This document shows, piece after piece, positions 2,911 to 18,618 of a stretch of DNA of 22,366 nt. Positions within the stretch are counted from its first letter, which is position 1. Each line of letters begins with the position of its first letter. The DNA is from a virus, in the IMG/VR virus record IMGVR_UViG_3300042890_001870, positions 1 to 22,366 of that record, one strand, 5' to 3'. A program made the position numbers and the translations under genes. Under the pieces are notes generated by a model. It made no database searches and was not told the DNA's origin. It saw only the letters and a list, made by a program, of their open reading frames with translations.

Positions 2911-2924
2911 TTTATTATAAATAT
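2911..2924 (-). promoter_or_regulatory. Candidate late promoter motif for the sheath gene
   Basis: The minus strand reads ATATTTATAATAAA. The 16 bases at 2910-2925 are identical to those at 10900-10915, upstream of the gp14-like gene. Related motifs precede other virion genes in this window. Function as a promoter is inferred from recurrence and position only. Confidence 0.45.
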
Positions 2925-2971
2925 TCAGTTTTTTTCAAAAGTAATCCATATCAAAAAGATATATTTCTTTT

Positions 2972-3002
2972 AGTATGAGTTTTATCATACTTTTATCATA
3001 CT
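2972..3002 (+). promoter_or_regulatory. Operator-like heptamer repeats upstream of the small regulator gene
   Basis: Three copies of one heptamer lie within 31 bases: AGTATGA at 2972-2978 (inverted), TCATACT at 2985-2991, and TCATACT again at 2996-3002. The two direct copies are 11 bases apart, about one helical turn, so both would face the same side of the DNA. Ribbon-helix-helix repressors typically bind arrays of short repeats of this kind, often in front of their own gene. That this is an autoregulatory operator is inference. Confidence 0.4.
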
Positions 3003-3008
3003 TTTATA

Positions 3009-3023
3009 ATATTTATTGTAAAA
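3009..3023 (+). promoter_or_regulatory. AT-rich ATATTTAT motif before the small regulator gene
   Basis: ATATTTATTGTAAAA lies 5 bases before the preferred start codon at 3029. It resembles the motif in front of virion genes. At this distance it could be a promoter with an almost leaderless transcript, or an A/T-rich translation enhancer. Confidence 0.25.
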
Positions 3024-3028
3024 ACCCA

Positions 3029-3196
3029 ATGAAAAGAGATAAAAACTTGAAAATAACAACTAAAACACATCAACTACTTAAAAAGTATTGTGAAGATAAT
3101 GGACTTAAAATGTTTGCATATGTAGAAACATTAATTAAACGAAATTGTATTTTAAAACAAAATAATAACAATGATAACGATATATATGGTGAATAA
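3029..3196 (+). CDS. Small ribbon-helix-helix-like DNA-binding protein
   Basis: A 55-residue, Lys-rich protein. After a short charged start, LKITTKTHQLLKKYCEDNG followed by KMFAYVETLIKRN matches the layout of a ribbon-helix-helix fold: one beta-strand (LKITTK) that would insert in the DNA major groove as a dimer, helix A (THQLLKKYCEDNG) and helix B (FAYVETLIKR). An Asn/Asp-rich tail follows. I chose the ATG at 3029 over the in-frame ATG at 2975 for two reasons: the strand then falls near the N-terminus as in the family, and the longer form would add a hydrophobic segment encoded by the operator-like repeats. The gene is isolated between the divergent sheath gene and the convergent giant fibre gene. 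It may regulate its own promoter or flanking late genes; this is inference. The fold assignment rests on pattern alone. Confidence 0.6.
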   Translation: MKRDKNLKITTKTHQLLKKYCEDNGLKMFAYVETLIKRNCILKQNNNNDNDIYGE

Positions 3197-3240
3197 CATA
3201 CATATTATTTAACCCAGTTTATAAACCATATATATGTTTT
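3195..3240 (+). terminator. Possible terminator after the small regulator gene
   Basis: An 11-base arm at 3195-3205 pairs with 3228-3238 with one mismatch and is followed by a short T run. The 22-base loop itself contains the palindrome GTTTATAAAC at 3217-3226. The stem is AT-rich and weak, and it overlaps the stop of the convergent fibre gene. Confidence 0.3.
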
Positions 3241-6200
3241 TAAGATGATGGATTTGTCGTTATAGTTGTCGTTCCTATGTCTCTTACATATATTCTTAAT
3301 GGTGATGGTCTATCAGCACCAGCAACATAGGCTCCAGTTTGCCTACTACCACATCTAACTATATTACCACTAAAATTACATACTGTCATAACATAATATG
3401 AATATATTGTAGATGGTGTTAATCCACTTAATATAAATGAAGCTCTATATGATGCGGAACTACCATCAGCATCTCCATTTATTCTAAACCAACCTTTATC
3501 TGGTGTGGTGGTTGATGCCGTTGTTGAGTGTAAACCTATCATTTGAACAGCAGCACTATTTGTAAATATAATATCCGCTTCAAATATTATTTCAACAACA
3601 CCACTTGATGGTGCTGTAAATGTTGTTTTAGCATATCTATTAGTAGCGTCTGAATTACAATTAATAACTGTAAAATCTGTTGAACTAGCTACAGTGTGTG
3701 TAGCAAGTGTTGAAGCTGTTAATACAGTTATAGCAAGTATTTTACCATTATTTATACCATCACCAGCATATGTTGTTGCACTTAATGTTCCATAAACACT
3801 AGTATTACCAGACACCGTTAATTTATTATTACCAATAGGTTGTGTTAAACCAATAGCTGTGTTACCACTTGCATTTATCACGAAATGAGAAGCATCTCCA
3901 TTGGATATATCTTGTACAACAAATGCATCACCAGCACCATTCTGAATGATTTTAACTAATTCAGATGAACTATTTCCAGAAAATAAAGATTGAGTACCAC
4001 CAGTTATATATATGTTATCACTATATAATGTTGTAGCCGAAATAGTTGTACCGATAAAAGTACCATATACCGTAGTATTACCAGATACGGTTAATTTATC
4101 ACCATTTAATGGTGTTAATAATCCGATAGCTGTATCACCACTAGCATTAATAACGAATGGTGAGGTATCTGGGTTAGTCGAATCTTCAATAATTAAAGCA
4201 TTACCACTACCCAATTGTGTTATCCTAACTAATTCGTTAGATGAATTACCTTGAATTCTAACAAGTCCATTAGTTATATTAGTATTACCATTTACTGTTA
4301 AACCAGTTAATGTATTAAATAATGTGTTAAATGTACCTCCAGTATTATTGGTAAATGTAAATGTATTGTTAGAATAAGTAGCCCCAGTTGTAAATACATC
4401 AGTTGGTAAATTATAATATGTTGTAGCAGATATGGTATTAGCAGTTAACCCACTATTAAATATAGTACCACCAGTTACTGTACCACCACTCAACGGTAAG
4501 TAATAACCATTTAAATTATTAGAAACTGATAAACCAATTTGTTTAGCAACAATAATCACAGATGGTGCTACTGGTCTTGTTGGTGTAGTTAAACCACTAA
4601 AGGTTGTTATTTCAATATATTGACTAGGAGACGAAAAATAAAATTCAACATAGTCATTAGCATTTAATTCGAATATATATGATACAAAAGGTAATTGTAA
4701 CGCACTATTAGATACCATACTTACTATTGATGAACTTCTAGTAACTGGATTACCATTTATACTAGCCCAAATAGTAACATCAGAAGTAGTACCTTGTGTT
4801 TTTTGTATTTGAGCCGAATACCCAATTTCATAAACACCTTTGTTATTAACCTTGATTTGAGAACCATTAACAACACTTATTCCATTAGATAACTCAGTAG
4901 TATTATATGTCCAAACAGTTGGTGTACTAACACCAGTAACTGGTTGTGTTGTTGTGTCTGAGAAGCTACCATAATAGTTAGCAGACATACCACTAGAAGT
5001 TAATCCAGTTACAGTAAATGTACCACCAGTATTATTTGTGAATACAGCACCACCACCATTATAAGTTCCACCAGTTACATATACATCTTTAGGTAAACCA
5101 TAATAAGTTGTAGCTGAAACCGTTGTTGCTGTAAGACCATTTAAAAAAGTCGTTGGACCAGTTACTGTACCACCAGTAAATGTTGAACCACCAGTTGTAC
5201 CACTTACAACATTTCCAGAAGAATCTATTCCTAAATTAGTAATAGATGTACCACTACCAATAGTTTTAATATTCAAAGTAGTAGCCGTAGCACCACCATT
5301 ATTAGCTCTAAAACCGTTTGATTCAAAAGTAGTTCCAGAAATATAACCATCAGCTCTTATAAATGAAGTAACACCATTTGAAGCAGTTTGACCCTCTAAT
5401 AATCTAGTTATATTATCAGCATTCCCAGTACCATTTTTTATAGATAAACCATCAAGAACTGCATTTATAGTTATTTCTGGACTATTAGAATTATCATATG
5501 CTTGTTGTAATGTAGTTGTTGATAAACCACCAGTTCCACCGAAACTTTCACCAAACTTAGAAACAAAAGTGAATTTAGCATAAGCTGGATTGGTTAATGA
5601 TTGTCCATCAGTACCAATATCATTTCTAACTGAAAGTACCCCAATCAATATCCCAGTACTTTCAGCATTAGGATAAGGTATAAATACCTCTGATTGTACC
5701 GCAGCAACAGCGGCATTTAAACTCGTATATACAGTTTGACCATACAACACATTTATAACACCAGTTGGATACATATATATCCTTTGATTAGTAGCTCTAT
5801 CAAGGTTAGCATTACCAATACTAGTAATTACACCACCAACATCATAATTTCTAGGGTCAATAACGGTTACACTAGTTGAAGTACCACCAGTTTGTGTTCT
5901 GTAGTTAAATGAAGCTGGTGTTTTTCCAGTAATAATAACATCATTAGGGCTTAATTGGTTATTATGCCAATTAATACCATTACCCCAAAGAATACCAGCT
6001 GAAGTATTAAAACTTAGATTAGCACCATTTGGTGAAGGTATAATACCTTGATTTATCAACCTTATAGGTGACCATAAATCACGCAAAGATGACATTGGTG
6101 ATACATCATAATCAGCTGTGTTATTTATATTTAATATAGTTGACCTATTTGGATGATTAACCTTACCTAAATATATACTTTCTCTTCTTTGTTGTGGTGT

Positions 6201-7268
6201 AGGAAATATTGTTTGTTGTGTTATAGTTAAACCACTATTAATTAAAATATATGTTGAATCGGCTGTTAAAATATTAGTAACCGATATGTTAGTACCTCCA
6301 GTATAATTAATAGCTAAAACATCTGGCGTTAAAGCATATTCATATGTATTTTTAACAATCCAACCTTTCAATGGTGCAACATTAAAAGTTGTTGTTGATG
6401 CTGTTGTCATTCCAGTAAATTCAAACAAACCAGTAGATAATGTATTTCCTTCCAATACATTTCGTTCTAAATCCGTTAAAGATAATACTGAGTTTTCATT
6501 GTTTATATTAACAAATAATTTACCAGTTGTAACTCCAGTTTGAACCACATAACCAACATTATTTGTTCTTGCTGAAAGTGGAAAAGTTAAAAATTTTGTA
6601 TAATCATCTAACTTACCTGGTATAGTATCAGAAGCAAAAACCAATGAACCAACTGTCACCCCAGTTAATTCAATGTTACTTATAATACCATTTGTTATTA
6701 CTATACCTTCAGAGTTGTTAGGTATTATTTCAGCCGAAACACCAACAATATTAAAACCAGTATTTTTATTAACAGCAAGAGTTACAGATGGTAACCCACT
6801 ATAAGACGATAAAATTTCTAACGCTTTACCTCTAGGAATATCAGTACCACTATTATTGAATACTCTAATATAGTTTTGTTGACCTAAATTAACGGTAACA
6901 CCTTGATTAATTGATGAATTATATGATAATGCTTTTTCAGTATTATCAAAATAAACAGTTCCAGCAACTGTAGCAGCACTAGTTGTTCCAGTGTTAAAAA
7001 TGATATAATCAACTGTATTTATACTTGTTGCAGAGATTGTTGTGGCAGATAAATAAGGTGTGAACAATGTACCAGTCATTGTGTCACCAGTTTTATGAAC
7101 CCTATCCCAACCAATTGGTAATATTGAATTAGCTGTTGTTCCAGATGCGTAAAGGATATTATCAGCTGTGTTTAAAGCTAATTCTCCAAGTAATAAATCA
7201 CCAGCTGATGGTATCTTACCAGCAATATTTGAACGTTTAATTAAAAACGTATTTTTTCTATTTGCCAT
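3240..7268 (-). CDS. Giant modular tail fibre / structural protein (1342 aa)
   Basis: A very long Thr/Gly/Asn/Ser-rich beta protein of the tail fibre type, probably part of the host-recognition apparatus. The N-terminal 45 residues contain GDLLLGELALNTADNILYAS, a short module common at the head of phage fibre proteins and also present, diverged, in the 474-residue fibre at 7431. Residues of about 330-570 form a globular stretch with QRRESIYLGKV and IDPRNYDVGGV. Residues of about 763-911 (starting YYGSFSDTTTQPV, with VYEIGYSAQIQ and WASINGNPV) look like a C1q/TNF-like jelly-roll. Then come two tandem 64-residue repeats (41 of 64 identical) and a separate C-terminal domain of about 140 residues. 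SATTYYGLP-type linkers separate modules. Stop TAA. Fibre role is confident; exact position on the virion is not visible from sequence. Confidence 0.8.
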   Translation of the reverse strand: MANRKNTFLIKRSNIAGKIPSAGDLLLGELALNTADNILYASGTTANSILPIGWDRVHKTGDTMTGTLFTPYLSATTISATSINTVDYIIFNTGTTSAATVAGTVYFDNTEKALSYNSSINQGVTVNLGQQNYIRVFNNSGTDIPRGKALEILSSYSGLPSVTLAVNKNTGFNIVGVSAEIIPNNSEGIVITNGIISNIELTGVTVGSLVFASDTIPGKLDDYTKFLTFPLSARTNNVGYVVQTGVTTGKLFVNINNENSVLSLTDLERNVLEGNTLSTGLFEFTGMTTASTTTFNVAPLKGWIVKNTYEYALTPDVLAINYTGGTNISVTNILTADSTYILINSGLTITQQTIFPTPQQRRESIYLGKVNHPNRSTILNINNTADYDVSPMSSLRDLWSPIRLINQGIIPSPNGANLSFNTSAGILWGNGINWHNNQLSPNDVIITGKTPASFNYRTQTGGTSTSVTVIDPRNYDVGGVITSIGNANLDRATNQRIYMYPTGVINVLYGQTVYTSLNAAVAAVQSEVFIPYPNAESTGILIGVLSVRNDIGTDGQSLTNPAYAKFTFVSKFGESFGGTGGLSTTTLQQAYDNSNSPEITINAVLDGLSIKNGTGNADNITRLLEGQTASNGVTSFIRADGYISGTTFESNGFRANNGGATATTLNIKTIGSGTSITNLGIDSSGNVVSGTTGGSTFTGGTVTGPTTFLNGLTATTVSATTYYGLPKDVYVTGGTYNGGGAVFTNNTGGTFTVTGLTSSGMSANYYGSFSDTTTQPVTGVSTPTVWTYNTTELSNGISVVNGSQIKVNNKGVYEIGYSAQIQKTQGTTSDVTIWASINGNPVTRSSSIVSMVSNSALQLPFVSYIFELNANDYVEFYFSSPSQYIEITTFSGLTTPTRPVAPSVIIVAKQIGLSVSNNLNGYYLPLSGGTVTGGTIFNSGLTANTISATTYYNLPTDVFTTGATYSNNTFTFTNNTGGTFNTLFNTLTGLTVNGNTNITNGLVRIQGNSSNELVRITQLGSGNALIIEDSTNPDTSPFVINASGDTAIGLLTPLNGDKLTVSGNTTVYGTFIGTTISATTLYSDNIYITGGTQSLFSGNSSSELVKIIQNGAGDAFVVQDISNGDASHFVINASGNTAIGLTQPIGNNKLTVSGNTSVYGTLSATTYAGDGINNGKILAITVLTASTLATHTVASSTDFTVINCNSDATNRYAKTTFTAPSSGVVEIIFEADIIFTNSAAVQMIGLHSTTASTTTPDKGWFRINGDADGSSASYRASFILSGLTPSTIYSYYVMTVCNFSGNIVRCGSRQTGAYVAGADRPSPLRIYVRDIGTTTITTNPSS
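3786..3977 (-). repeat. Fibre internal duplication, copy B (64 codons)
   Basis: Encodes the 64 residues from GNSSSELVKIIQ to NTSVYGT. It aligns without gaps to the copy at 4059-4250, with 41 of 64 identical residues by my count. Both copies share FVINASG and KLTVSGNT, the latter a common beta-turn motif of phage fibres. Confidence 0.85.
4059..4250 (-). repeat. Fibre internal duplication, copy A (64 codons)
   Basis: Encodes the 64 residues from GNSSNELVRITQ to NTTVYGT, the upstream partner of the copy at 3786-3977. The two copies have exactly equal length (192 bases), which suggests an in-frame duplication kept under structural constraint. Confidence 0.85.
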
Positions 7269-7326
7269 ATATAATGGTATATCTTAAAAATCTCTATAAA
7301 GAGTTATGTTTTTAGGTTATGTAACC

Positions 7327-7342
7327 TTTATAAAATAAATAT
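7327..7342 (-). promoter_or_regulatory. AT-rich motif upstream of the giant fibre gene
   Basis: The minus strand reads ATATTTATTTTATAAA, a looser version of the motif found before the sheath and gp14-like genes. It directly follows the terminator-like hairpin at 7339-7366, so termination of the upstream gene and initiation of the next one would be juxtaposed. The roughly 60-base leader that follows also holds two small palindromes: AGGTTA-TG-TAACCT at 7314-7327 and a CTCT/AGAG pair near 7292-7303. Confidence 0.3.
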
Positions 7343-7366
7343 GCACAACCATTAGATTGTGCATAT
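7339..7366 (-). terminator. Hairpin, probable terminator of the 474-residue fibre gene
   Basis: A perfect 10-base stem (7339-7348 with 7357-7366) closes an 8-base loop. On the minus strand the hairpin is followed by ATTTATTTTAT, an imperfect U-tract. It lies about 65 bases after the stop of the fibre gene at 7431. The 162-base gap between this gene and the giant fibre gene contains no coding sequence that I can support. Confidence 0.5.
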
Positions 7367-7430
7367 TATAATTATTATATTTTTAAAGTAAATAGTTTTT
7401 TGACATAACTAATTAATAATCAGTTAGTTA

Positions 7431-8855
7431 TCAATATTGTCCACCATCAAGAACGTCAAATTCGGCCAATACTCTAACACCATTTGGTGTTGTTATACTA
7501 GTACTTCTAATTACTATATCATTTAATTGAGTTATAAGACCTCTATTTGCATATCCAGTTGAAGAAGTATACTCAGTAACACTAGGTACGTTAGAAGCTG
7601 TTAAACCAGTCAATGTGTCAAGTCTATTTATGTTTAAGTTAACGTCACCACCGTTGACACCATTACCATCTTGAATTGTCCAACCAGCACCTATAGAAGT
7701 TACTGTTGTATTTCCAGTTGGGTTATAGTTAAGTGAGATATTAGGGTCTTCAACATACAATTGAGAAGTAAACGCAGAAATTGCAGAACCAAACACAGTT
7801 AAATCACCTTGGATAACTGCACTACCAGTAACGTTTAAACCACCAGTACCAACATTAACTGTACCATCACTAGGGACACTAAATGTATTTGTACCAGCAT
7901 CATAAGTAAATCCAGCTTCATCAGTTAATAAACCACTAGTACCAACATAAACAACTCTACCAGCAGTTAAATTAGATAAAGTTAAACCAGAAACAGTTGA
8001 AAATTGAACTGGTAAATCTGGTTGACCTTGGTTTTGTTTAATTGTAAACGTATTTGTTGTTGGTGAATATGTGAATCCAGTTACAAATGTATCATTTGAA
8101 GTTAAACCAGTTACATTAAATGAACCATTGTTGTTATTATTCAAGGTAAGTGTACCAGCATTATAAGTACCACCAGTAGTATATACATCAGTTAAACCAG
8201 TTATAGTTACATTTGATGCGTTTTTTCTACCTAAAACAATAGAACCATTAGGACCAGTATAAGAAATAGTACCACCAGTAACATAAACATCATTTGTTTG
8301 TGTGTAAGATGTAAGTGTATCTACATTAACAACAGAATAAGGATTACCAATAGTAATTGGAGCATATAAATAAGTTGAACCACTTAGATTAGTTGTACCA
8401 GTAACTGTTAAATCACCATTAACAGTTAAACCAGTCATCACATCAATAAGAGTTGTTAAATTTGGTTGTCCGTTGTTTTGTTTAATAGTTAAAACGTTAC
8501 TTCCATATGTAAATCCAGTAACATAAGTATCAACACCAGCAATAGCTGATATGTCAGCCAAAACAAACCCAGTAGTCGTACCAGATAAGAATTTTCCAGT
8601 TAAATTTGTTACACCACTATATGCTGTGATTTGATTTCTAATCTTTAAATCATATAAGTTAGAACCTACTTCAAAAAATGTTGGTGTAGTTGGTCCAGAT
8701 TGTGTCCAACCACTAGTTGATGTGGTAACACCAGAAAAATACATTATACCATCAGCAGTATTAACGATTGGTTCACCTTTGAGTAATGTAGACGGTAAAG
8801 GTCTATTTATAATATCACTATTTTTTAAAATGTGAGTTGTGTTTCTTATTGCCAT
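7431..8855 (-). CDS. Modular tail fibre protein (474 aa)
   Basis: A beta-rich fibre protein with the N-terminal module LKGEPIVNTADGIMYFSG, homologous in pattern to the start of the giant fibre at 3240. The body is built from repeats of the form (D)VYVTGGTYNxGTLTxNNNxGxFNVTGLT, seen at least four times with variation. The C-terminal third contains SQLYVEDPNISLNYNPTG and GAGWTIQDGNGV, a segment common in tail fibres. The protein ends in DGGQY, similar to the NGGIY end of its upstream neighbour. The start has one of the few credible ribosome binding sites in the window (AGGAAAAAATG). The gene has its own upstream AT-rich motif at 8871-8883, 37 bases after the neighbouring gene stop. The stop is TGA. 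It is probably a short fibre or a fibre segment on the same complex as the giant fibre. Confidence 0.75.
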   Translation of the reverse strand: MAIRNTTHILKNSDIINRPLPSTLLKGEPIVNTADGIMYFSGVTTSTSGWTQSGPTTPTFFEVGSNLYDLKIRNQITAYSGVTNLTGKFLSGTTTGFVLADISAIAGVDTYVTGFTYGSNVLTIKQNNGQPNLTTLIDVMTGLTVNGDLTVTGTTNLSGSTYLYAPITIGNPYSVVNVDTLTSYTQTNDVYVTGGTISYTGPNGSIVLGRKNASNVTITGLTDVYTTGGTYNAGTLTLNNNNNGSFNVTGLTSNDTFVTGFTYSPTTNTFTIKQNQGQPDLPVQFSTVSGLTLSNLTAGRVVYVGTSGLLTDEAGFTYDAGTNTFSVPSDGTVNVGTGGLNVTGSAVIQGDLTVFGSAISAFTSQLYVEDPNISLNYNPTGNTTVTSIGAGWTIQDGNGVNGGDVNLNINRLDTLTGLTASNVPSVTEYTSSTGYANRGLITQLNDIVIRSTSITTPNGVRVLAEFDVLDGGQY

Positions 8856-8870
8856 TTTTTCCTTTTTTTT

Positions 8871-8883
8871 TTTATATAAATAT
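8871..8883 (-). promoter_or_regulatory. Candidate late promoter motif for the 474-residue fibre gene
   Basis: The minus strand reads ATATTTATATAAA, followed by an A-rich leader that includes AGGA before the ATG. It is a close variant of the motifs at 2911-2924 and 10901-10914. Confidence 0.4.
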
Positions 8884-8894
8884 ATTATTATTTG

Positions 8895-9293
8895 TCAATA
8901 TATACCTCCGTTCAAAAAATCGTCTTGTATTATTGAATTATTTGCTGTTATTTGTCTAGTATTACCAGAAGAATCTATACCTAAATCTAATAAAGGTGTT
9001 GTGACACTTATTGTTGATGTCCAGACACTAGAGGTTCCACTAATGGTGTTAATATCCCTAAATCTTTGTAATGGGATTCCCAAATCAATAGTTGCGTCTA
9101 GCAATGGTATTATACTAGTATTAAAAATTGTTTGACCAGTACCTAATATGATTTCAGCATCACCACTACAAGATATTATAGTGTTGGTATAAATAGCTGT
9201 ACATGCCGAAATAACTGGTGTACCACCAGTCAATGGCATTGGTTGAATAATGAACATTTGATTTATACTCGAAGAATTATTTGAACAGCTCAT
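8895..9293 (-). CDS. Small fibre-like structural protein (132 aa)
   Basis: A short protein with fibre-type sequence. The segment DATIDLGIPLQRFRDINTISG is of the kind found in phage fibres and tail-associated proteins, and LLDLGIDSSGN recurs as NLGIDSSGN in the giant fibre. The Cys/Ser/Asn-rich start (MSCSNNSSS) is unlike its neighbours. The C-terminus NGGIY resembles the DGGQY end of the next gene. It begins immediately after the upstream gene: that gene's stop TAA (9295-9297) lies one base from the ATG. It is likely co-translated with the tail completion protein. A function beyond being a virion or fibre-associated component cannot be given. Confidence 0.6.
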   Translation of the reverse strand: MSCSNNSSSINQMFIIQPMPLTGGTPVISACTAIYTNTIISCSGDAEIILGTGQTIFNTSIIPLLDATIDLGIPLQRFRDINTISGTSSVWTSTISVTTPLLDLGIDSSGNTRQITANNSIIQDDFLNGGIY

Positions 9294-9294
9294 A

Positions 9295-10356
9295 TTATAT
9301 TGTATTTCCTAATAAGGTGAAAACACCTTCATCATAAAAGTTTTTTGTTATTTTAATTGTTATTATATCATTTGCATTAAACACCAAAGGTGTAGTCATA
9401 ACCAAACCATCAAATACACCAACATTATTTACTAAAATAACTATTCTACTAATTCCATTGATATTATTCAATTGTGTAAACATTACCTTATATTGATTTG
9501 TAAATGAAAATTGAGTTTCAGATTTAGGTTTAAAATCAAATGTAAAATTAACATCATTTACATTTACCGTTGGTGTTAGTATTATATCACCAAAATTAAT
9601 GATGCCTTCATCAATTTCGGTTGTTATCATAGTTCTATTTATTGTTGGTACGACTTCAAAATCTTCTTCATCAAGTATATAACCTAATAATTTAAGTTCA
9701 AATAATTGAACATAAAATCTTCTATTTTCGAAATCATCGATATTACTTTCATCACCAATACTTTCTAAATGCAAAGGCATAGGGTGACCATTAACATTTA
9801 TATAACATTGTCTAGATTGAAAAGCTCTTTGAATAATTCTATTGAATTTATTCAAATCTTTCATTCTATTTGTAAACAATCTTATTTCATAAGTCATATC
9901 AACTGGTGTTGGTTGAGGTACTTTATATAAATCAACACCATGTCTAATACCATCCCATGTTGGTACTTTCATGTATGTGTATGTTCTGTTGCCTGGTATG
10001 TTCCATAATCCAGCTTGGTTTTGACCTTGTTGAATATCTGGTTTTCTAATTATTGTTATAAATGGTAACTCAATATTTTTGTATTTATCAGAAAATTGCC
10101 ATGTTTTACTAAATTCAGTCCATCTTTGAATAGTTAAAAATATAACTGGTACCTTTTCACCATTAATACTAATACTAAACCCTTTATCAGATTTAGCAAA
10201 TTCAACAACAGCTTGGTCCATATCTTCTTCCAATACACCCTTGGGTAAAAAAGTACCCTTATCAGCAATTCCATCTAGGATATCTTGTCTCCTTTGAAAA
10301 CCAATATTATCTTGTTTTATTTTTATGTTGGTCATGTAACCTTTAGGCATTGCCAT
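9295..10356 (-). CDS. Tail completion / sheath terminator protein, T4 gp15-like
   Basis: A 353-residue protein whose central part (about residues 145-232) resembles T4 gp15, the ring that caps the tail and stabilises the sheath end before head joining. The similar features are the segment VDMTYEIRLFTNRMKDLNKF, followed by an internal helix and then LESIGDESNIDDFENRRFYV and a beta-strand FELKLLGYIL. T4 gp15 has the same order: MIYELSIFT, then a DE-rich turn, RR and a closing strand. About 115 C-terminal residues form an additional beta-rich domain not expected in gp15 (272 residues). The position between a gp14-like gene and fibre genes supports a neck or tail-end role. The match is by remembered pattern, not alignment; a different tail protein remains possible. 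Confidence 0.5.
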   Translation of the reverse strand: MAMPKGYMTNIKIKQDNIGFQRRQDILDGIADKGTFLPKGVLEEDMDQAVVEFAKSDKGFSISINGEKVPVIFLTIQRWTEFSKTWQFSDKYKNIELPFITIIRKPDIQQGQNQAGLWNIPGNRTYTYMKVPTWDGIRHGVDLYKVPQPTPVDMTYEIRLFTNRMKDLNKFNRIIQRAFQSRQCYINVNGHPMPLHLESIGDESNIDDFENRRFYVQLFELKLLGYILDEEDFEVVPTINRTMITTEIDEGIINFGDIILTPTVNVNDVNFTFDFKPKSETQFSFTNQYKVMFTQLNNINGISRIVILVNNVGVFDGLVMTTPLVFNANDIITIKITKNFYDEGVFTLLGNTI

Positions 10357-10374
10357 ATCTTATTCTATTTAAAT

Positions 10375-10896
10375 TTATACCCCACGGAATTCTGAACTAT
10401 CAACTGGTGCACATTTAACTGTTCTGAAGGCACCTTTATAACCCATTATTGTATGTTTGTTATCGTAATTTTTAACACCATCATTTACCACTGAAAAATA
10501 TCTTATTTCAGTTTCGGAAACTGGATACCCTATGTAATCACCATAAGATAATGAAGCGTTTAATTCTTTTAATTGAGCATCATATATTCCAAAACTTAAA
10601 TTACCATCTTGGATATATCTCAACCCACCATTGTTATTATATGTTTTGTTTTCTGGTGCTTCAAATAATGGAATCACTTTTAACTCAATTGGTGGGAAAA
10701 ACCTAATCCCATCTTTTGATGCTTCACCATAAAGAATGTCACTTTCACTCATTTCTCTATCAACTATATAAAGAATAACTGTAAAATTACCATCACCTTC
10801 TATTGCCTCACGACCCATAGAAATTTCTAAATTAAAATCTTCTTCCGAAAAAAATTTATTTATACGTGTTATAGGTGTAATTTTCTTATTTTCCAT
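10375..10896 (-). CDS. Neck / head-completion protein, T4 gp14-like
   Basis: A 173-residue protein. EISMGREAIEGDG, LYIVDREMSESDILYGEASKD (near residues 42-62) and SYGDYIGYPVSETEIRYF (near residues 115-133) follow the order found in T4 gp14: a start segment, a PRE-type motif with FGE, and a late GD-IYF beta-hairpin. gp14 forms part of the neck that closes the filled head and receives the tail. This protein is shorter than T4 gp14 (256 residues). The next gene, 18 bases downstream, is gp15-like, matching the 14-15 order of T4. The start codon sits nine bases after an AT-rich promoter-like motif and lacks a Shine-Dalgarno sequence. The assignment is an inference from motif order and neighbours. 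Confidence 0.5.
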   Translation of the reverse strand: MENKKITPITRINKFFSEEDFNLEISMGREAIEGDGNFTVILYIVDREMSESDILYGEASKDGIRFFPPIELKVIPLFEAPENKTYNNNGGLRYIQDGNLSFGIYDAQLKELNASLSYGDYIGYPVSETEIRYFSVVNDGVKNYDNKHTIMGYKGAFRTVKCAPVDSSEFRGV

Positions 10897-10900
10897 AGCT

Positions 10901-10914
10901 TTTATTATAAATAT
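10901..10914 (-). promoter_or_regulatory. Candidate late promoter motif for the neck/tail-completion operon
   Basis: The minus strand reads ATATTTATAATAAA, nine bases before the final GCT and start of the gp14-like gene. It is identical over 16 bases to the motif upstream of the sheath gene. If it is a promoter, the transcript would be almost leaderless. Confidence 0.45.
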
Positions 10915-10943
10915 TTATCTTTTGATTAATAACCAATAAACTA

Positions 10944-10974
10944 TTGATTTTATTAAAAAGTTTTATTATATTTA
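10944..10974 (+). promoter_or_regulatory. Host-type (Bacteroidota) promoter candidate for the helicase operon
   Basis: TTG at 10944-10946 is separated by 20 bases from TATATTTA at 10967-10974. This matches the Bacteroidota primary sigma consensus (-33 TTG or TTTG, -7 TAnnTTTG) at all but the last base of the -7 element. A leader of about 20 bases would follow before the helicase ATG at 11002. Confidence 0.45.
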
Positions 10975-11001
10975 ATTAAAAAATTACCAGGTATTTAAAA
11001 A

Positions 11002-12861
11002 ATGTATGATTTGATAAACTTAGATGATTTAAAAGGGCATAGTGCACTTTCATTGTTAGAAAACTATGAAGGTATTAATCCGTATATTCTTAAATTAAAA
11101 AACGAATTAGTAAAAAATAAGAAAATATCACTAACTGATAACCAATCAAGATACATAGTTGATAACCACGATAGAGAACCACAAATGATTAATCGTGTTA
11201 TAGGTATTACCGAATACTTAGGTTTAGAATTACAAAAACAAGACGTGTTATCATTTATCCCAGAAAGAATATTAATTGAATTTATTCTTGCTGAAACAGA
11301 TAAAACATACCATGTATATGGTAAATTAAATAGAAATCAAAAAAATTCTAAAATGTATTGGTTACCAAAAACACAAGTAACTGATGACCCATACTTTGAA
11401 CCGATAGAAATGGATGTTGATTTTACACCATACAATGATATCCTATCTAAACAAGGTAAGAAATTATACCAACATCAAGAAGAAGGTATTAAATTCCTAT
11501 TATCTAGAAATGGATGTATATTAGCAGATGATATGGGTTTAGGTAAATCAATTCAATCAATCATTGCTGCATTGGAAAGTGGTGCTAAAGATATCTTAAT
11601 CGTTTGTCCATCATCAACCAAGATAAATTGGGAGCGTGAGATTAATGTTTTTTGTGACGATACAGCTATAATAGATGGTAAAAACTTTAAAAAAGCTAAA
11701 TTTACAATAATAAACTTTGATATCCTTAAAAATTTCCATACACTTCCAGACAATAGAAAAAGAAAAGAAGGTGAACCACAACAAGTACTTTTTAGAGACT
11801 TAGCCAATAGTAAGTTTGATTTAGCAATTATCGATGAAGCTCACTATCTTAAAAATCATGACAGTATTCGTGGTAAAATTATGGTTGAATTAACTGTAAA
11901 ACACAACATTCCAAAAGTTTGGTTACTTACTGGTACACCAGTTGCGAATAGACCAATGGACTTCTTCAATCTTCTTAAGATAATTAAGTCTCCAATAGCG
12001 AATAATTGGAAACACTATGCTCTTAGGTATTGTGATGGTAGACAGTTCATGAGAACACTTAAAAATGGTCAAAGAAAACAAATATGGTTAACAGATGGTG
12101 CTAGTAATTTAGAAGAATTAGCAGCTAAGACTAAAAATATTATTCTTAGACGTTTAAAAACTGAAGTATTAGATATGCCAGATAAGGTAATAACACCAAT
12201 GTACCATAGATTAGACCTTAAAGGTTGGAAAATGTACGGTTTATTATGGGATGAATATATGGCTAAAAGAAAATCTGAGGGTAAGAAATCAATAGAAACA
12301 CAAAAAGATTTGGTTGAGTTAATATTACTTAGAAAATTCATAGCAATGGAAGCGATACCTAACACAATTGAAATTGTTGAAAACGCAATAGAAATGGGTC
12401 GTAAAGTAATTATTTTCACATCTTTTACTGAAGAATTAGAAGCATTGGAAAATCATTTTGGTAAGATTGCTGTAAAACATAATGGTCCGATGACCATGAA
12501 TGCTAAACAAAAATCTGTAGATTCATTCCAAAACAATTCAAAGATTAAGGTATTTATTGGTAATATAAAATCAGCTGGTGTTGGAATTACACTTACCGAA
12601 GCTACAGTTGTTATATTCAACTCATTTGATTGGGTTCCAGGCTCTAACGAACAAGCCGAAGACAGAGCTTTTCGTATTGGTCAAAAAAATGATGTAAACG
12701 TATATTACCAATTATTTGTTGATACTATATCAACTAGAATGTGGAATATGTTAAATAATAAAAAAGATGTTATTAATATTATCATGGGTGATAATAAATT
12801 AACTGAAGAAGAAATAACCATCAAAATGGTGGATGAATTAATAAATGATTTAAATGGTTAA
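11002..12861 (+). CDS. SNF2-family (superfamily 2) DNA helicase/translocase
   Basis: An ATP-driven double-strand DNA translocase of 619 residues. The helicase motifs are complete and in order: YQHQEEGIKFLL; the ATP-binding loop ADDMGLGKS at residues 175-183; LIVCPSSTKINWE; DEAH at 278-281; TGTP at 310-313; KVIIFTSFTEE; GVGITLTEA; and QAEDRAFRIGQ with the arginine finger region near 555-558. RAFRIGQ marks the SNF2 group, as in HepA and SMARCAL1. The roughly 150 residues before the helicase core are not recognised in detail. Such proteins remodel forks, remove bound proteins or assist recombination; T4 uses UvsW for related work, though that is a different subgroup. It is first in a plus-strand operon with glutaredoxin, behind a host-type promoter, consistent with early expression. 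Confidence 0.9.
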   Translation: MYDLINLDDLKGHSALSLLENYEGINPYILKLKNELVKNKKISLTDNQSRYIVDNHDREPQMINRVIGITEYLGLELQKQDVLSFIPERILIEFILAETDKTYHVYGKLNRNQKNSKMYWLPKTQVTDDPYFEPIEMDVDFTPYNDILSKQGKKLYQHQEEGIKFLLSRNGCILADDMGLGKSIQSIIAALESGAKDILIVCPSSTKINWEREINVFCDDTAIIDGKNFKKAKFTIINFDILKNFHTLPDNRKRKEGEPQQVLFRDLANSKFDLAIIDEAHYLKNHDSIRGKIMVELTVKHNIPKVWLLTGTPVANRPMDFFNLLKIIKSPIANNWKHYALRYCDGRQFMRTLKNGQRKQIWLTDGASNLEELAAKTKNIILRRLKTEVLDMPDKVITPMYHRLDLKGWKMYGLLWDEYMAKRKSEGKKSIETQKDLVELILLRKFIAMEAIPNTIEIVENAIEMGRKVIIFTSFTEELEALENHFGKIAVKHNGPMTMNAKQKSVDSFQNNSKIKVFIGNIKSAGVGITLTEATVVIFNSFDWVPGSNEQAEDRAFRIGQKNDVNVYYQLFVDTISTRMWNMLNNKKDVINIIMGDNKLTEEEITIKMVDELINDLNG

Positions 12862-13108
12862 AATATATAGCATACCAGATTGTCCGTATTGTACGGAATT
12901 AAAAAGTATATTAACAGAAGAAGGTATAGAATTTATTGATGTTAATGTCAACTTAGAAGAAAATGAAAATGAATATAATCAGATTCATGAAATCACTAAA
13001 TCTGATGATGTTCCAATCGTTAAAGTTGGTAAACAACTTCTAGTACCAAATGTTTCTTTTGCTAGTATTAGAGAAGCTGCTGATTTAACAAAGAAATTTT
13101 TAGCTTAA
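12854..13108 (+). CDS. Glutaredoxin-like thiol-disulfide oxidoreductase
   Basis: An 84-residue thioredoxin-fold protein. The redox motif CPYC is at residues 10-13, the cis-proline motif DDVPIVKVG follows near residue 54, and the length is that of small glutaredoxins such as T4 NrdC. Such proteins usually donate electrons to phage or host ribonucleotide reductase to make deoxynucleotides for phage replication; no reductase gene is visible here. The ATG lies inside the end of the helicase gene (8-base overlap ATGGTTAA), so translation is probably coupled. Identification of the fold is firm; the reductase partner is inferred. Confidence 0.88.
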   Translation: MVKIYSIPDCPYCTELKSILTEEGIEFIDVNVNLEENENEYNQIHEITKSDDVPIVKVGKQLLVPNVSFASIREAADLTKKFLA

Positions 13109-13122
13109 TTCAATGTTTTCTT

Positions 13123-13137
13123 ATATTTATATATAAA
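13123..13137 (+). promoter_or_regulatory. Candidate late promoter motif for the gp13-like gene
   Basis: ATATTTATATATAAA on the plus strand, ending 8 bases before the ATG. It is the same motif in the same orientation relative to the gene as those before the minus-strand virion genes. It would separate late expression of gp13 from the early helicase-glutaredoxin transcript. Confidence 0.4.
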
Positions 13138-13145
13138 GAAAACAC

Positions 13146-14288
13146 ATGGCAGTAAGTAACGAAGAAAAAGAAAAACTCTTCAGACAATTCAGACATTCCG
13201 TTGGTGCACCCATTCGTCAAATTGAGGTGTTAGATGAGATGTTATGTACTCTATTAGAGATTTGTATTGAAGACTACAGTATGTATGTTCAAGAATGGTT
13301 AATCGAACATCAATGGCAATCATTATTAGGGAACAATATCGATACTATCGATATGGCCTTTGCATTGAGTGTTAGAAGTTTTGATTTCATGACACAATAC
13401 ACATATGCATACTCAAAACAAGTTGGTTTACAAACCAATGGTCCTTGGGAACTTAAAAAAGATTTTGTTGAGTTAGAAGCTGGTAGACAAGTTTACCAAA
13501 TTCCAGCTGGACGTGAAGTTAATGAAGTTCTTTGGATAACACCTCCAGCAACTAGTCAAGCCTTGTTAGCCAACTATGGTGGTATTGATTATGGATTTGG
13601 TGGTGGGTTTGCTCAAACTGGTGGTGGTACTGGAACTGGTGGTCCAGGTTTTGCTCGTATGGGTTATTACATTGCACCAGCATTTGATATTTTATTAACA
13701 GCTGCTGATATGAATCTTAAAAATAGAATTGTTAGAAGTGAACTTGTATATAAAATAACAGCTGGACCTAATGGTACTAAATTATTACATTTATTAAGTA
13801 CACCAGGTTCTAAATTATCATTCGGTCAAGGTATTGGTGGTGTTGGTAGTTCTATCAATATGACTGGTTGTCAAGTTTGGTATTTCTATTACGATACAAC
13901 CAACGCTGATGTTGATGCTTGTAGACGAGATAATCCAGATATCATAAAAATGCCAAACCAAGTTCCGTTGTCTAAATTAGACTATGCTGATTTCAATGAA
14001 CCAACAAAAACACTTGTTCGTCAATTATTTATAGCTGAAGCCAAAAAAACACTTGGTAGAACTAGAGGTAAATTTGGTGGAATAGTTGGGCCTCCAGATG
14101 CTGAAAGAACTATGGATTACGAAACACTTATTAGTGAGGGTAATGAAGAGAAAAAAGCAGCTTTAGAAAGACTTGACACTAGACTTTTAAGGTTATCTTC
14201 AACAGCACAGCTAGAGCGTGGTGCAAATGAAGCCGAATTCTTAAACAAATCATTAGGATATAGACCACTAGGATTTTATGTATACTAA
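13146..14288 (+). CDS. Neck protein, T4 gp13-like
   Basis: A 380-residue virion protein. The N-terminus HSVGAPIRQIEVLDEMLCTL followed by EICIEDYSMYVQEWL parallels the start of T4 gp13 (RLGAPIINVELTPDQIYDC, then ALELYGEYH). The C-terminal helical region LFIAEAKKTLGRTRGKFGG, then DYETLISEGNEEKKAALERL and a closing LGFYVY, matches gp13 in order: AKELNGQILARHQG, a LIEEARLEKEAL segment and a FGILV end. gp13 helps seal the packaged head and join it to the tail. Residues of about 140-176 form an inserted Gly-rich loop (GGGFAQTGGGTGTGGPGF) not found in T4. The gene is on the plus strand behind helicase and glutaredoxin, while the gp14- and gp15-like genes are on the minus strand 2.2 kb away. No Shine-Dalgarno sequence is seen. 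The assignment is good but made from memory of the family. Confidence 0.72.
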   Translation: MAVSNEEKEKLFRQFRHSVGAPIRQIEVLDEMLCTLLEICIEDYSMYVQEWLIEHQWQSLLGNNIDTIDMAFALSVRSFDFMTQYTYAYSKQVGLQTNGPWELKKDFVELEAGRQVYQIPAGREVNEVLWITPPATSQALLANYGGIDYGFGGGFAQTGGGTGTGGPGFARMGYYIAPAFDILLTAADMNLKNRIVRSELVYKITAGPNGTKLLHLLSTPGSKLSFGQGIGGVGSSINMTGCQVWYFYYDTTNADVDACRRDNPDIIKMPNQVPLSKLDYADFNEPTKTLVRQLFIAEAKKTLGRTRGKFGGIVGPPDAERTMDYETLISEGNEEKKAALERLDTRLLRLSSTAQLERGANEAEFLNKSLGYRPLGFYVY

Positions 14289-14327: not shown

Positions 14328-17300
14328 TTAAAATCCCCATTCATCTTCTTCCTCTTCTTTTAATAGAGTTTCATGTTCTAGTTCCATCATAGCCATCATA
14401 GCTCTTTCACCATTGTTACTGTCTTCGTAATCATCTGGTAATTCAGCGTATGTATCATCTATCTCATCATCCAATTGAATGATATCATCACTTCTAACGA
14501 TATCACCGTTATCATCTTCTTCTTCAGATACTTCACCATCATCTTCACTTTCACTTTCAGATAAAACTCTTCGCTTCTTATCTTCTTTTTCAATAACAAC
14601 AACAGCTGCTTTTTCTTTCAATAATGTTACTAGTGCATCGGTGTCCTTTTTCAATGGTATTATTTCTTCGACATCAACATTTTCAACTATTTCAGTAAAC
14701 ATATCAATTGTCTTACCAGTCATAACTTCTTGTTCATTAAGATAATCTAAGTATTCTTGATATCTATTATCTAAGTTCTCAATACTAACTAATTTATAAT
14801 ATTTATCCCTTTCTATCGCTTGAATCTCGTATTTGAAAATATCTGATACTGGACATAATTCTTCACCCCATTTTCTAGAAATCAACATATTAAAATCTTC
14901 AGATATATCAGCTATCATAAATGCTACTTTAGGTAACTCACCAGTATTGATAATATGGTCAAATTCAGAAACCTCTAAGTGTTTAAATATTCCATCAAGA
15001 GATTCTTGTTCGTGTTTTATACCATCAATCTTAGCTATACGCATACGTTCTTTCCAATCTATTCTTATTGTTTCCCATTCAGATTCATCCATATTATTTG
15101 GAATCTTATCAACACTATCCCAGAACCTTATTTCTTTATCCTCCATTTTCATAAGGTCTTCGTAAGAGTCTTGGTCACCAACTTTATTTGGCATACCACA
15201 AACCAACCCACATTCAGAATGAACAAATATCATTCTTTCTTTAAGTTTTTCAGTTGTTTTTTTAGTAATCTTATCTTTAGTTTTAACTATGTCTAATAGT
15301 ATTTTACTACGAATATCTGGATGGAAACAAACTAGAAGTGGTCTAACTTTTTTATTAAAAGCTTCTAAATAACGAGCAACATTATATTCATCAGTATATA
15401 ACTCATTATTAATATTTTCCATTCTCCTTTCCATTTCATCACGACCTAAATCATCCTCCAAAGAATCGATAGCTACTTTTAACATATTCAATTCTTTTAC
15501 AAGTTCGAAATCTCTTTCAACTGTTTCTGGGTCAATAAGTTTACAGTTAAGTTCAACAACTTTATTAGGTTGTGGGTAAACACCATGTTCAGCAAAATGA
15601 GCATCTTTTTGTTTTTTAGTCATTTTATTCTTATCTATGGTTTTTAAATCACCATGTGATTTAGCACTACCAATATTTATATAGTATAATACATCACCCA
15701 AAGTAATATCTAAACTTTCTCTAATTGCCAATTCCATATGTGCTTGTTTAGGCATAGGGTTACCAGCTTTATTTAACTTTTTAGTTTTTGCTTTATAATC
15801 ACTGATATTAGACTTAACTTTAGCCTTAGAAGCTATTTTAACAAGTGGGATTTGATAATTATAAATCTTATCAACATATTCATAATAGAAATTAATAAAT
15901 GAATAACCATCACCATCTAATAACATACGAATTGCTTTACCTAAGAACTCTTCAATATAAACTGACATTTTCTTAGACTTAACAGAATTACCAACCAACT
16001 TAATTTTACCACCAATATCGTTGGCGTAGTTTTTACGAGCAAAATTGATAGTAGAATTACACACATCATCAATATCTAACCCCATACGTCCTTCCATGTA
16101 GTTTTCATTGAATTCGGCCAATACAGCTTCCAACCCAACCAATTCAACATTAGCGTTTTTATCAGTTTTCCAATGTGAACCCTTAGCAACGTATTTAATA
16201 TCATTAATATTAGGTGGGGATGCAAAGTTGAATCCATCAGTATCACCTACAAGTGCTCTAAATCCGTGTTTTTCAGTAAAGTGTTTAACCATAAGACGTA
16301 AGTATTGACGACCACGACAAGTTGTTTCTTCAGCTGAATCTGTATCACCCCAATTGAAAATATATGGTGCACCATAAGAACCAAACCATGAGTTAGCTAA
16401 AATCTTAAGTGGTAACTGTTTCTTATCATATAGATTGGCTAACGCTTTGTTCTCATCTATTTCTTTCTTAAGTTTATCTATTTCATCATCAGACATTGTG
16501 GGTTTACACTCCTTTAATTTCTTTTCTAATGATTTGTATTTATACTTATGTTCACCAGTTAAAAATTTGTATTTATCACGTGTATCAACAACGTAAGTAA
16601 GTGTACCTTCCATCATCCCAGTGATATCTAAGTCTGGAAAGATAAAGTGAGTCAGCTGAATCTTTGGATAAAGTGCAGCAAAATCCAATTTAACAACATC
16701 CCTAGCATACCCAACTTCCAATAAACGAGCTAAACCACCAGTAAAATCTCTTTTCTTTTGTGTTTCTGGAATTGCAAGACCGTTTTCATATGACCAAGCA
16801 GACATAATCAATTTCCATTGACCAGCAGTACCCATTGTTGATGAACGTTGGTATGTTGTTGGTAACATTTTTCCGATAAGAAATGATGCTTGATTAAATA
16901 TGTTATCAATTTGTTCTGTTTCCCATAAATCGTCAGATAAATATCTTTGAACAATATAAGCACCAGTTTTAACTTCATATCCATTTTTCAAAGGTTTCTT
17001 TTCTGTAAGCATATACCAATCACCATCGGTATCATTAAATGCGTATTTATTAACCTTATCAGCCCACGTTGTATTGATTTTATCACCTGGCACATAAACC
17101 CTATTAGGTTTAGCTATTTCAGAGTATTGAGTAATATACTTTAAACCCCACGCCTTTATTTCTGAGTTAATAGCCATAGCTCTACGAACAGCATGTGATA
17201 TATCAATAATGTTATATCCAAACATACTTGTCTGTTGGTAAATTTCTGTCTCACCACCAAACTTAACTGTTGATGATTTTCGCTTGATTTTAGAGAGTCT

Positions 17301-18104
17301 ATTGAGTGTTATGGCTAATTCTGTCACTGGTATAGATAAACGCTCTGCACGCTCAAATATGAAAGGCCAATCGAAGTTCTCAGAATTATAACCAGCGATA
17401 ATATCTGGTTTAACAATATCGATGATTTTAAAGAATCTATCAATCATTGCTCTTTCAGCATCTCTTTTTTGTTGATAACTTTCACCTTCAGTTTCCAATA
17501 GGTAATCCATACCTCTATTATCACGAACACCAATTTGGAAGATAGCATTTTTACTTGGAAATAAACCTTCCGTTTCTAAGTCAAATTGAAATCTATGCAA
17601 CCCATCATAATCATCAACACCTTTAAACAATCGTTTACCAGTTTGAATCATAAATTGTTCAACTGGGCTAAACATAACAAAATTTTCACGAAATTCTTTA
17701 TCGAAAACATCAAAACCACCATCTTTAAAAAATCTAACCAAATGATTATATGATTTTGTGCAAATGGCTATATATTTATAACCATTTTCTAATCTTTTAG
17801 GTGAAAACCCATCACTATTGGCTGTTTTTAATCTCTTGATTGTAACACCATATTTGGTACCCATCTCAAGTCTTAATTTCTTGTTTCGATTGTATAATAA
17901 ATTACCTATCTCTTCTTTAAACCACAAAAATGGTTTAAACTTAACGTCTTCAGTATACTTACCAAGTTCTGGGTCATTGATTACTAGTGTAACCATAGGT
18001 TCACCATAAGATGCTTCTATTGAAACGATGTATTTCTGTGGGTCTGAACCTTCCAAGAATTCTTCAATTCTCTCATTACTTACCTTTGCTTTTTGCTCAC
18101 TCAT
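14328..18104 (-). CDS. Family B DNA polymerase with 3'-5' exonuclease (T4 gp43-like), 1258 aa
   Basis: The replicative polymerase. Exonuclease motifs: FDLETEG with D175 and E177 (Exo I), YNSENFDW with D245 (Exo II) and RYLSDDLWE with D391/D392 (Exo III candidate). Polymerase motifs: KLDFAALYP with D474 (A), KILANSWFGSYG with K567 and N571 (B) and GDTDGF with D621 and D623 (C). A KNYAN segment then closes the palm. All key residues are present and uninterrupted, so no intein or intron is seen. At 1258 residues it is about 360 longer than T4 gp43. The extra length lies after motif C, in an enlarged thumb region and a highly acidic C-terminal tail of about 85-100 residues ending EEDEWGF. Two host-type promoters and two perfect inverted repeats precede it. 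Start ATG, no Shine-Dalgarno sequence; stop TAA, with a shared terminator beyond. Confidence 0.95.
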   Translation of the reverse strand: MSEQKAKVSNERIEEFLEGSDPQKYIVSIEASYGEPMVTLVINDPELGKYTEDVKFKPFLWFKEEIGNLLYNRNKKLRLEMGTKYGVTIKRLKTANSDGFSPKRLENGYKYIAICTKSYNHLVRFFKDGGFDVFDKEFRENFVMFSPVEQFMIQTGKRLFKGVDDYDGLHRFQFDLETEGLFPSKNAIFQIGVRDNRGMDYLLETEGESYQQKRDAERAMIDRFFKIIDIVKPDIIAGYNSENFDWPFIFERAERLSIPVTELAITLNRLSKIKRKSSTVKFGGETEIYQQTSMFGYNIIDISHAVRRAMAINSEIKAWGLKYITQYSEIAKPNRVYVPGDKINTTWADKVNKYAFNDTDGDWYMLTEKKPLKNGYEVKTGAYIVQRYLSDDLWETEQIDNIFNQASFLIGKMLPTTYQRSSTMGTAGQWKLIMSAWSYENGLAIPETQKKRDFTGGLARLLEVGYARDVVKLDFAALYPKIQLTHFIFPDLDITGMMEGTLTYVVDTRDKYKFLTGEHKYKYKSLEKKLKECKPTMSDDEIDKLKKEIDENKALANLYDKKQLPLKILANSWFGSYGAPYIFNWGDTDSAEETTCRGRQYLRLMVKHFTEKHGFRALVGDTDGFNFASPPNINDIKYVAKGSHWKTDKNANVELVGLEAVLAEFNENYMEGRMGLDIDDVCNSTINFARKNYANDIGGKIKLVGNSVKSKKMSVYIEEFLGKAIRMLLDGDGYSFINFYYEYVDKIYNYQIPLVKIASKAKVKSNISDYKAKTKKLNKAGNPMPKQAHMELAIRESLDITLGDVLYYINIGSAKSHGDLKTIDKNKMTKKQKDAHFAEHGVYPQPNKVVELNCKLIDPETVERDFELVKELNMLKVAIDSLEDDLGRDEMERRMENINNELYTDEYNVARYLEAFNKKVRPLLVCFHPDIRSKILLDIVKTKDKITKKTTEKLKERMIFVHSECGLVCGMPNKVGDQDSYEDLMKMEDKEIRFWDSVDKIPNNMDESEWETIRIDWKERMRIAKIDGIKHEQESLDGIFKHLEVSEFDHIINTGELPKVAFMIADISEDFNMLISRKWGEELCPVSDIFKYEIQAIERDKYYKLVSIENLDNRYQEYLDYLNEQEVMTGKTIDMFTEIVENVDVEEIIPLKKDTDALVTLLKEKAAVVVIEKEDKKRRVLSESESEDDGEVSEEEDDNGDIVRSDDIIQLDDEIDDTYAELPDDYEDSNNGERAMMAMMELEHETLLKEEEEDEWGF

Positions 18105-18120
18105 TATCTAGAATTTTTTA

Positions 18121-18150
18121 CAAATATACATAAAAAATTTAAATAAACAA
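18121..18150 (-). promoter_or_regulatory. Host-type promoter P1 of the DNA polymerase gene
   Basis: On the minus strand TTG (18148-18150) is followed after 19 bases by TATATTTG (18121-18128), a full match to the Bacteroidota -33/-7 consensus TTG-N17-23-TAnnTTTG. Initiation would fall roughly at 18114-18117, giving a leader of about 10-13 bases before the ATG at 18104. Confidence 0.65.
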
Positions 18151-18225: not shown

Positions 18226-18600
18226 TTACTTTTTAATACTACCTTCTAACACATTTACAAATAATTCTTCTCTAATTGGAGCTATAAGTGTACCAGTACC
18301 ATCTAAAAATTCTATTTCGAATTGACCAACATATCTACCTACATGAGATGTTTCTTTTTTACTGAATTGGTATATTATATAAAATTCTTCACCAACACAG
18401 TCACTTTGTGGTAATACCAATTGAATATTAGCTAATTTTTTAGCAATTCTTTTAACACCAGTAATAACATCAGTCATAGTGAAATATATATTAGAGTTTT
18501 GAATTTTCTCGTGAAATTTTTGATAATCATTTCTTCCATCCCTAATTAATTCTAATTTAAGGATTGGTAATGTTGCGTTTTTTTTTATGTGAAATTCCAT
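18226..18600 (-). CDS. Small baseplate/fibre-associated protein (124 aa)
   Basis: Contains an immunoglobulin-like beta pattern: MEFHIKKNATLPILKLELIRD, then FTMTDVITGVKRI, then EEFYIIYQFSKKETSHVGRY and IEFLDGTGTLIAPIREELFV. The YQF...T...GRY.G.F.I.F pattern resembles the N-terminal domain of BppU-type baseplate upper proteins, which attach receptor-binding proteins to the baseplate. It is last of three minus-strand fibre genes and follows the LamG-like adhesin by 18 bases, so it may be an adaptor or cap for that adhesin. An ATATTTATTAG stretch lies seven bases before the ATG but could be chance in such AT-rich DNA. The assignment is from pattern only. Confidence 0.5.
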   Translation of the reverse strand: MEFHIKKNATLPILKLELIRDGRNDYQKFHEKIQNSNIYFTMTDVITGVKRIAKKLANIQLVLPQSDCVGEEFYIIYQFSKKETSHVGRYVGQFEIEFLDGTGTLIAPIREELFVNVLEGSIKK

Positions 18601-18618
18601 ACTAATAAATATCTAATT

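Follow-up and report, generated by a model that had tools for sequence, protein, structure and literature searches.

The window, that is, the whole 22,366-nt stretch of viral DNA analysed here, carries genes for a tail sheath (18-2870), an Arc-like regulator, fibres of 1342 aa (3240-7268) and 474 aa (7431-8855), a gp14-like protein (10375-10896), a helicase, a gp13-like protein (13146-14288), a DNA polymerase (14328-18104) and a 124-aa protein (18226-18600). An AT-rich box with the core ATATTTAT, here called the late box, is present in eight of the nine upstream regions of the window; in 5000 dinucleotide shuffles the mean is 0.59 and the maximum 4/9. A preliminary description had listed copies of a looser 14-mer as a candidate late promoter of this phage. 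These copies were located to within a base, at 2911-2924 (-), 8870-8883 (-), 10901-10914 (-) and 13123-13136 (+, one mismatch), and the looser forms are found at 3009-3022 (+) and 7329-7342 (-). The two copies with 16 identical bases, AATATTTATAATAAAA, are those of the sheath and gp14-like genes, as the sequence itself shows.

The late box of the tail-sheath gene lies at 2917-2924 (-), with a putative transcription start (+1) at 2912 and a leader of about 42 nt; it is found upstream of 10/10 orthologues. The box of the 474-aa fibre gene (8876-8883, -; putative +1 at 8871) occurs in 5/6 members of its family, and that of the gp14-like gene (10907-10914, -; putative +1 at 10902, leader 6 nt) in 9/12 orthologues. 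The gp13-like gene has its box at 13123-13130 (+), a putative +1 at 13135 and a leader of 11 nt; an inverted repeat surrounds this box (13114-13144, +), and an RNA hairpin is predicted in read-through transcripts. The Arc-like regulator has a box at 3009-3016 (+) with a putative +1 at 3021, and both the spacing and the AAA at +1 agree with the site consensus. Its start codon is probably at 3029, a position that shares the reading frame of the listed 2975. The 1342-aa fibre gene has only a weak box (7335-7342, -), which is 66 nt from the ATG and has a poor downstream sequence. An additional box is found four bases before the 124-aa gene (18605-18612, -). Here the putative +1 would be the A of the ATG itself, which is the leaderless type; orthologues of this gene keep the starting residues MEF.

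The Bacteroidota housekeeping promoter, read by sigma-ABfr, has TTTG at -33 and TAHHTTTG at -12 to -5 (PMC6847099). In contrast to the late boxes, the DNA polymerase gene is preceded by a host-type -7 box, TATATTTG, at 18121-18128 (-), and such a box lies ahead of 8/10 orthologues. The preliminary description assigned host-type promoters to both the polymerase and the helicase; this stands for the polymerase and fails for the helicase, whose orthologues have a TAHHTTTG box in 0/10 cases. Nor is the motif missing before the helicase, as had been stated. The gp14-like box is near-palindromic and includes one ATATTTAT at 10911-10918 (+), within the helicase upstream region.

Enrichment in related contigs and cultured phages

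A protein search with the gp13-like query gave 80 related loci. The region upstream of the gp13-like gene was examined in 78 of these, two having been excluded because the match ran upstream of the start, and the exact box is found in 77 of the 78. The sequence ATATTTATAANNAAA has 138 upstream sense occurrences in 81 loci and one occurrence elsewhere. No matching record was found when the gp13-like protein was compared with the phage collection by tblastn; close relatives are therefore essentially uncultured.

The genome-wide comparison covered eleven incomplete contigs of 98-306 kb together with the window. Gene prediction relied on a simple codon model with the first ATG as start codon, and the predicted proteins were clustered into families. 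In an unsupervised 8-mer search over 819 upstream regions, ATATTTAT ranks first. It precedes 323 genes against 33 expected and is found 52 times on the opposite strand; because the contigs are related, these pooled counts are not independent and P values are overstated, and the family-level tables are safer. The host box TAnnTTTG is the second most enriched 8-mer. Position within operons is also distinctive: the box precedes 326/819 genes with an intergenic gap and only 8/643 genes inside operons, which fits a promoter and is unlike a translation signal.

A chance pattern of AT-rich intergenic DNA would account for the bulk count of the loose 14-mer in the window alone, which is not unusual (17 matches against 12.7 +/- 3.7 expected). 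The comparison refutes this explanation, and it now has practically no probability: dinucleotide-shuffled upstream regions give 24.5 +/- 5.2 copies of ATATTTAT against the 323 observed, the strand bias is strong, and the box is conserved before orthologous genes. Its frequency is thus not equalled in coding or AT-matched DNA, and the proposal of a late promoter, having survived this comparison, is strongly supported by the related contigs.

The box is shared with cultured relatives. In Flavobacterium phage immuto, [AC]TA[CT]TTAT occurs in sense orientation in 29 upstream regions and in antisense orientation in 4; the genes carrying it include those for terminase, portal, sheath, tube and tape measure. 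Microcystis phage Mel-JY01 has ATATTTAT upstream in 15 sense and 0 antisense cases. LR756508 has only a looser box, together with a gp55-like protein. No sense copy is found in the unrelated Bacteroidota phages crAss001, phi38:1 and FCL-2, in which host-type boxes are present. In the upstream regions of T4, used as a control, TATAAATA occurs 12 times sense and 5 times antisense, and ATATTTAT 3 and 6 times, respectively.

Two minor observations concern the cultured phages. A second upstream motif, TATATTTAGGTATCAATAATTAAAACA, is found in immuto (NC_055915.1, about 60988-76244; L176) 21-29 bases before the ATG of small genes of unknown function, and it likely represents an early promoter class. 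The head genes of Mel-JY01 include one annotated as ribosomal protein bS21 (L172:2207-2434).

Genes with late boxes and genes with host-type promoters

The two promoter classes are nearly exclusive. At the gene level, 306 genes have only the late box, 190 only the host-type box and 17 both; at the family level the numbers are 36, 16 and 2. Presence of the late box within a family is close to all-or-none. It lies ahead of 8/10 virion and lysis families and 1/11 replication and transcription families (P = 0.002), and it occurs on both strands. PHROG-annotated families with the late box are sheath, tube, head protease, gp13-like, gp14-like, fibre, gp25-like, PhoH and endolysin. The host-type class comprises SSB, primase, an exonuclease, a SigA-like sigma factor and DNA polymerase. 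The major capsid and portal families have no box of their own; the capsid gene is directly downstream of a box-carrying gene.

The one replication family with a late box is a DnaB-like helicase (fam45; L091:537-1985 and orthologues). A variant box, roughly ATATTTATnATAAC, lies about 30 bases before the ATG in 6/8 genomes; therefore not every carrier is a virion gene. This helicase, and some DNA polymerase genes which have a late box together with a host-type box, would be expected if the motif were a middle promoter or were read by a host stress sigma factor. Such a role is nevertheless very unlikely, since the annotated carriers are mostly virion and lysis genes and the unrelated Bacteroidota phages lack the box.

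Other observations relate to the arrangement and products of these genes. At the junction of fam14 and fam15, two late boxes are oriented divergently, exactly 14 bp apart (G001:C1:90404-90445; L088:10404-10445). The pair is found at the same place in eight other contigs, making nine contigs in all, and the footprints of two polymerases bound there would overlap. Many proteins from unrelated families begin with MKxLIKxLLRE (L086:17728-18489, L095:19202-19483, L159:10529-11545 and others), and several of them are located behind leaderless-type late promoters. The T4 prohead protease follows an LxE rule, which LRE fits; this N-terminus may be a peptide that targets internal head proteins to the capsid.

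Anatomy of the putative promoter and its relatives

With families weighted, the consensus site is ATATTTAT-N4-AAA, and the DNA at -29 to -25 is T-rich. No -35 element was found in the late class: the largest relative entropy near -33 is 0.30, compared with 1.28 in the host-type class. Counted from the start of the box, an A at index 12 is kept in 84-99% of sites over distances to the ATG from 7 to 45 bases, and the host-type class of these phages likewise has an A at index 12. In F. johnsoniae promoters the box is at -12 to -5 and mapped starts are 4-5 nt after it (PMC6847099). Because the A is fixed and both the F. johnsoniae starts and the host-type class agree with it, +1 was assigned to index 12; the A of ATATTTAT-N4-A is the probable transcription start. 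On this assignment the promoter would be one 8-bp AT box spanning -12 to -5 and lying some 10 bp ahead of the start.

Most copies are 10-20 bases before the ATG, and the full range is 4 to about 70. Distances pile up at exactly 4-5 nt, in about 29 genes, and almost none are closer. In genes whose ATG follows the box after exactly four bases, index 12 coincides with the A of that codon. This suggests that about 29 genes, with an ATG at or beside the putative +1, have leaderless mRNAs.

The T4 late promoter has TATAAATA at -13 to -6 and is read by gp55 with gp33 and the clamp gp45 (PMC2988020, PMC1524935). The present class resembles it in that a lone 8-bp AT box lies roughly one helical turn ahead of the putative start, with no -35 element, that both strands carry it upstream of virion and lysis genes, and that the genomes encode a candidate gp55-like protein. 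In register, the T4 bases at -12, -11, -10, -7 and -6 agree with this box (nATATTTA). The T4 consensus itself is not matched, because AA at -9/-8 is TT in ATATTTAT. Other differences are that -13 is free, that a T at -5 is kept, that leaders are very short or absent, and that the gp55-like protein is only remotely similar. The choice of A or C at -12 in immuto recalls phage Aeh1. The preliminary description saw in the motif the reverse complement of the T4 box. Aligned on the putative start, however, the two boxes have the same orientation and only -9/-8 is changed; on this alignment the resemblance to a reverse complement arises from the symmetry of the sequence.

Compared with sigma-ABfr promoters, the late class has an equal box-to-start distance, an AT-rich segment near -28 and Ts at -8 and -7. 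It differs in lacking both the G at -5 and the -33/-35 element, and in having ATA at -12 to -10. No published late motif of Bacteroidota phages was found in the literature searched, which lay mostly outside the subscription journals.

The predicted hairpin is a property of the gp13-like gene only. The flanks of its box are complementary (z 5.8; 0/300 within-family permutations, with relatedness not fully removed), and the sequence and register of the hairpin change across the family. In the window, the read-through RNA is predicted to fold at -8.8 kcal/mol (z -2.1). The predicted late RNA, beginning at 13135, is missing the 5' arm, which would leave the start free. In 12 orthologues the mean unpaired probability of the start region is 0.43 in read-through RNA and 0.77 in late RNA, a gain which exceeds that at other late genes. 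As a general property of the motif the hairpin was rejected: over all sites the flanks are only slightly more complementary than expected (z 2.3), and neighbour orientation gives no clear excess. Hairpins around late promoters are described for I-TevI and other late genes of T4 (PMC2988022). The gp13-like case is similar in having an inverted repeat around the box and late-promoter RNA without the 5' arm; it is different in that the hairpin stops just before the ATG, covers no Shine-Dalgarno sequence and is a prediction.

A hairpin around the gp13-like copy, and the usual distance of 10-20 bases from the ATG, are also what might be seen if the motif acted in the 5' leader RNA, in translation or mRNA stability, and were no promoter. 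This is highly improbable. The box is rare inside operons (8/643) and excludes host promoters; the distance to the ATG varies from 4 to about 70, yet up to about 45 bases the A keeps its place at index 12; and the hairpin is not general.

Candidate reader of the box

The preliminary description suggested a diverged phage sigma factor as the reader of the box, which is plausible, and the comparison points to an unannotated protein family of 242 aa, fam25, whose gene is located beyond the reach of the window. It is found in the same conserved gene block in eight contigs and also in immuto, Mel-JY01 and LR756508; the immuto gene lies at 78150-78869. Weak matches to the profile of the T4 gp55 late sigma factor (phrog_234) all fall in this family (G001, G003, G004, G010 and immuto; E 1e-4 to 8e-3); these five genomes give their matches independently of each other, and the family is conserved. 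The fam25 protein is longer than gp55 (242 against 185 aa), and the similarity is only remote. When the entire PDB was searched with the fam25 profile, SigA (E 0.013) and T4 gp55 (E 1.2, in the same register) were the only hits. Among the T4 ORFs, gp55 is the best match (E 0.0013) and the next has E 0.5. Homology of fam25 to T4 gp55 is probable, in the twilight zone of similarity, and fam25 is the best candidate for a late sigma factor reading the box. In the relatives, phrog_223 finds no clamp of the gp45 type, direct phmmer queries with T4 gp55, gp45 and others find nothing beyond gp44 in Mel-JY01, and phrog_12791 has only one doubtful match (G007). Another family, fam33, was considered as gp55 because of its size and was rejected; its PHROG match is a dUTPase.

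The same promoter could instead be read by a SigA-like phage sigma factor (fam59; phrog_351), which is clearly a sigma-70 protein with regions 1.2, 2 and 4. Most of these phages carry a SigA-like sigma factor, and the fam59 gene is at one locus in the six contigs that carry the main subfamily, mostly behind a host-type promoter, as expected of a switch gene. However, immuto and Mel-JY01, whose genomes are complete, lack it although both have the box, and for this reason it was lowered to an alternative. In addition, it retains region 4, although no -35 element is found in the late class. Such a reader is unlikely, while still deserving some weight.

It is very likely that the motif is the late promoter of T4-like myoviruses with Bacteroidota-type early promoters and that the putative remote gp55 homologue is its foremost candidate reader. 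Early and replication genes would start at host-type promoters (TTG at -35/-33, TAHHTTTG at -12 to -5). After a switch, virion and lysis operons on both strands would start at ATATTTAT, which would occupy -12 to -5, be accompanied by an AT-rich segment near -28 and direct initiation at the A four bases downstream. The absence of a -35 element would be explained if the fam25 protein worked together with the core RNA polymerase of the host. Some transcripts would have the AUG at their very 5' end. In read-through RNA from the helicase-glutaredoxin operon, the hairpin would hide the gp13-like start codon, and only the late transcript would be freely translated. Judged by host-type promoters only, the phage of the window would have a host of the Bacteroidota type. 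A fuller account, held tentatively and as slightly less probable than its opposite, is that a diverged gp55 lineage re-tuned the T4 box at -9/-8 towards the -7 Ts of Bacteroidota; late leaders would be mostly 0-15 nt and some absent, in hosts without Shine-Dalgarno use, and hairpin gating would be kept at the gp13-like gene.

A late-gene signal would thereby become readable in a large, mostly uncultured phage group, so that operons, start codons and late genes of unknown function could be marked in metagenomes, and an unannotated protein is pointed to as a candidate late sigma factor. The T4 plan of late transcription would extend to phages with Bacteroidota-type early promoters, with a change in the box. 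Phage immuto and Flavobacterium sp. LMO8 are a cultured phage-host pair which allows a direct test.

Some members of the gp55-like family have an in-frame insertion of ~76 residues near the N-terminus. It is found in several contigs: L255, L260-L263, L268, L271, L275 and L276 (gene from 1501).
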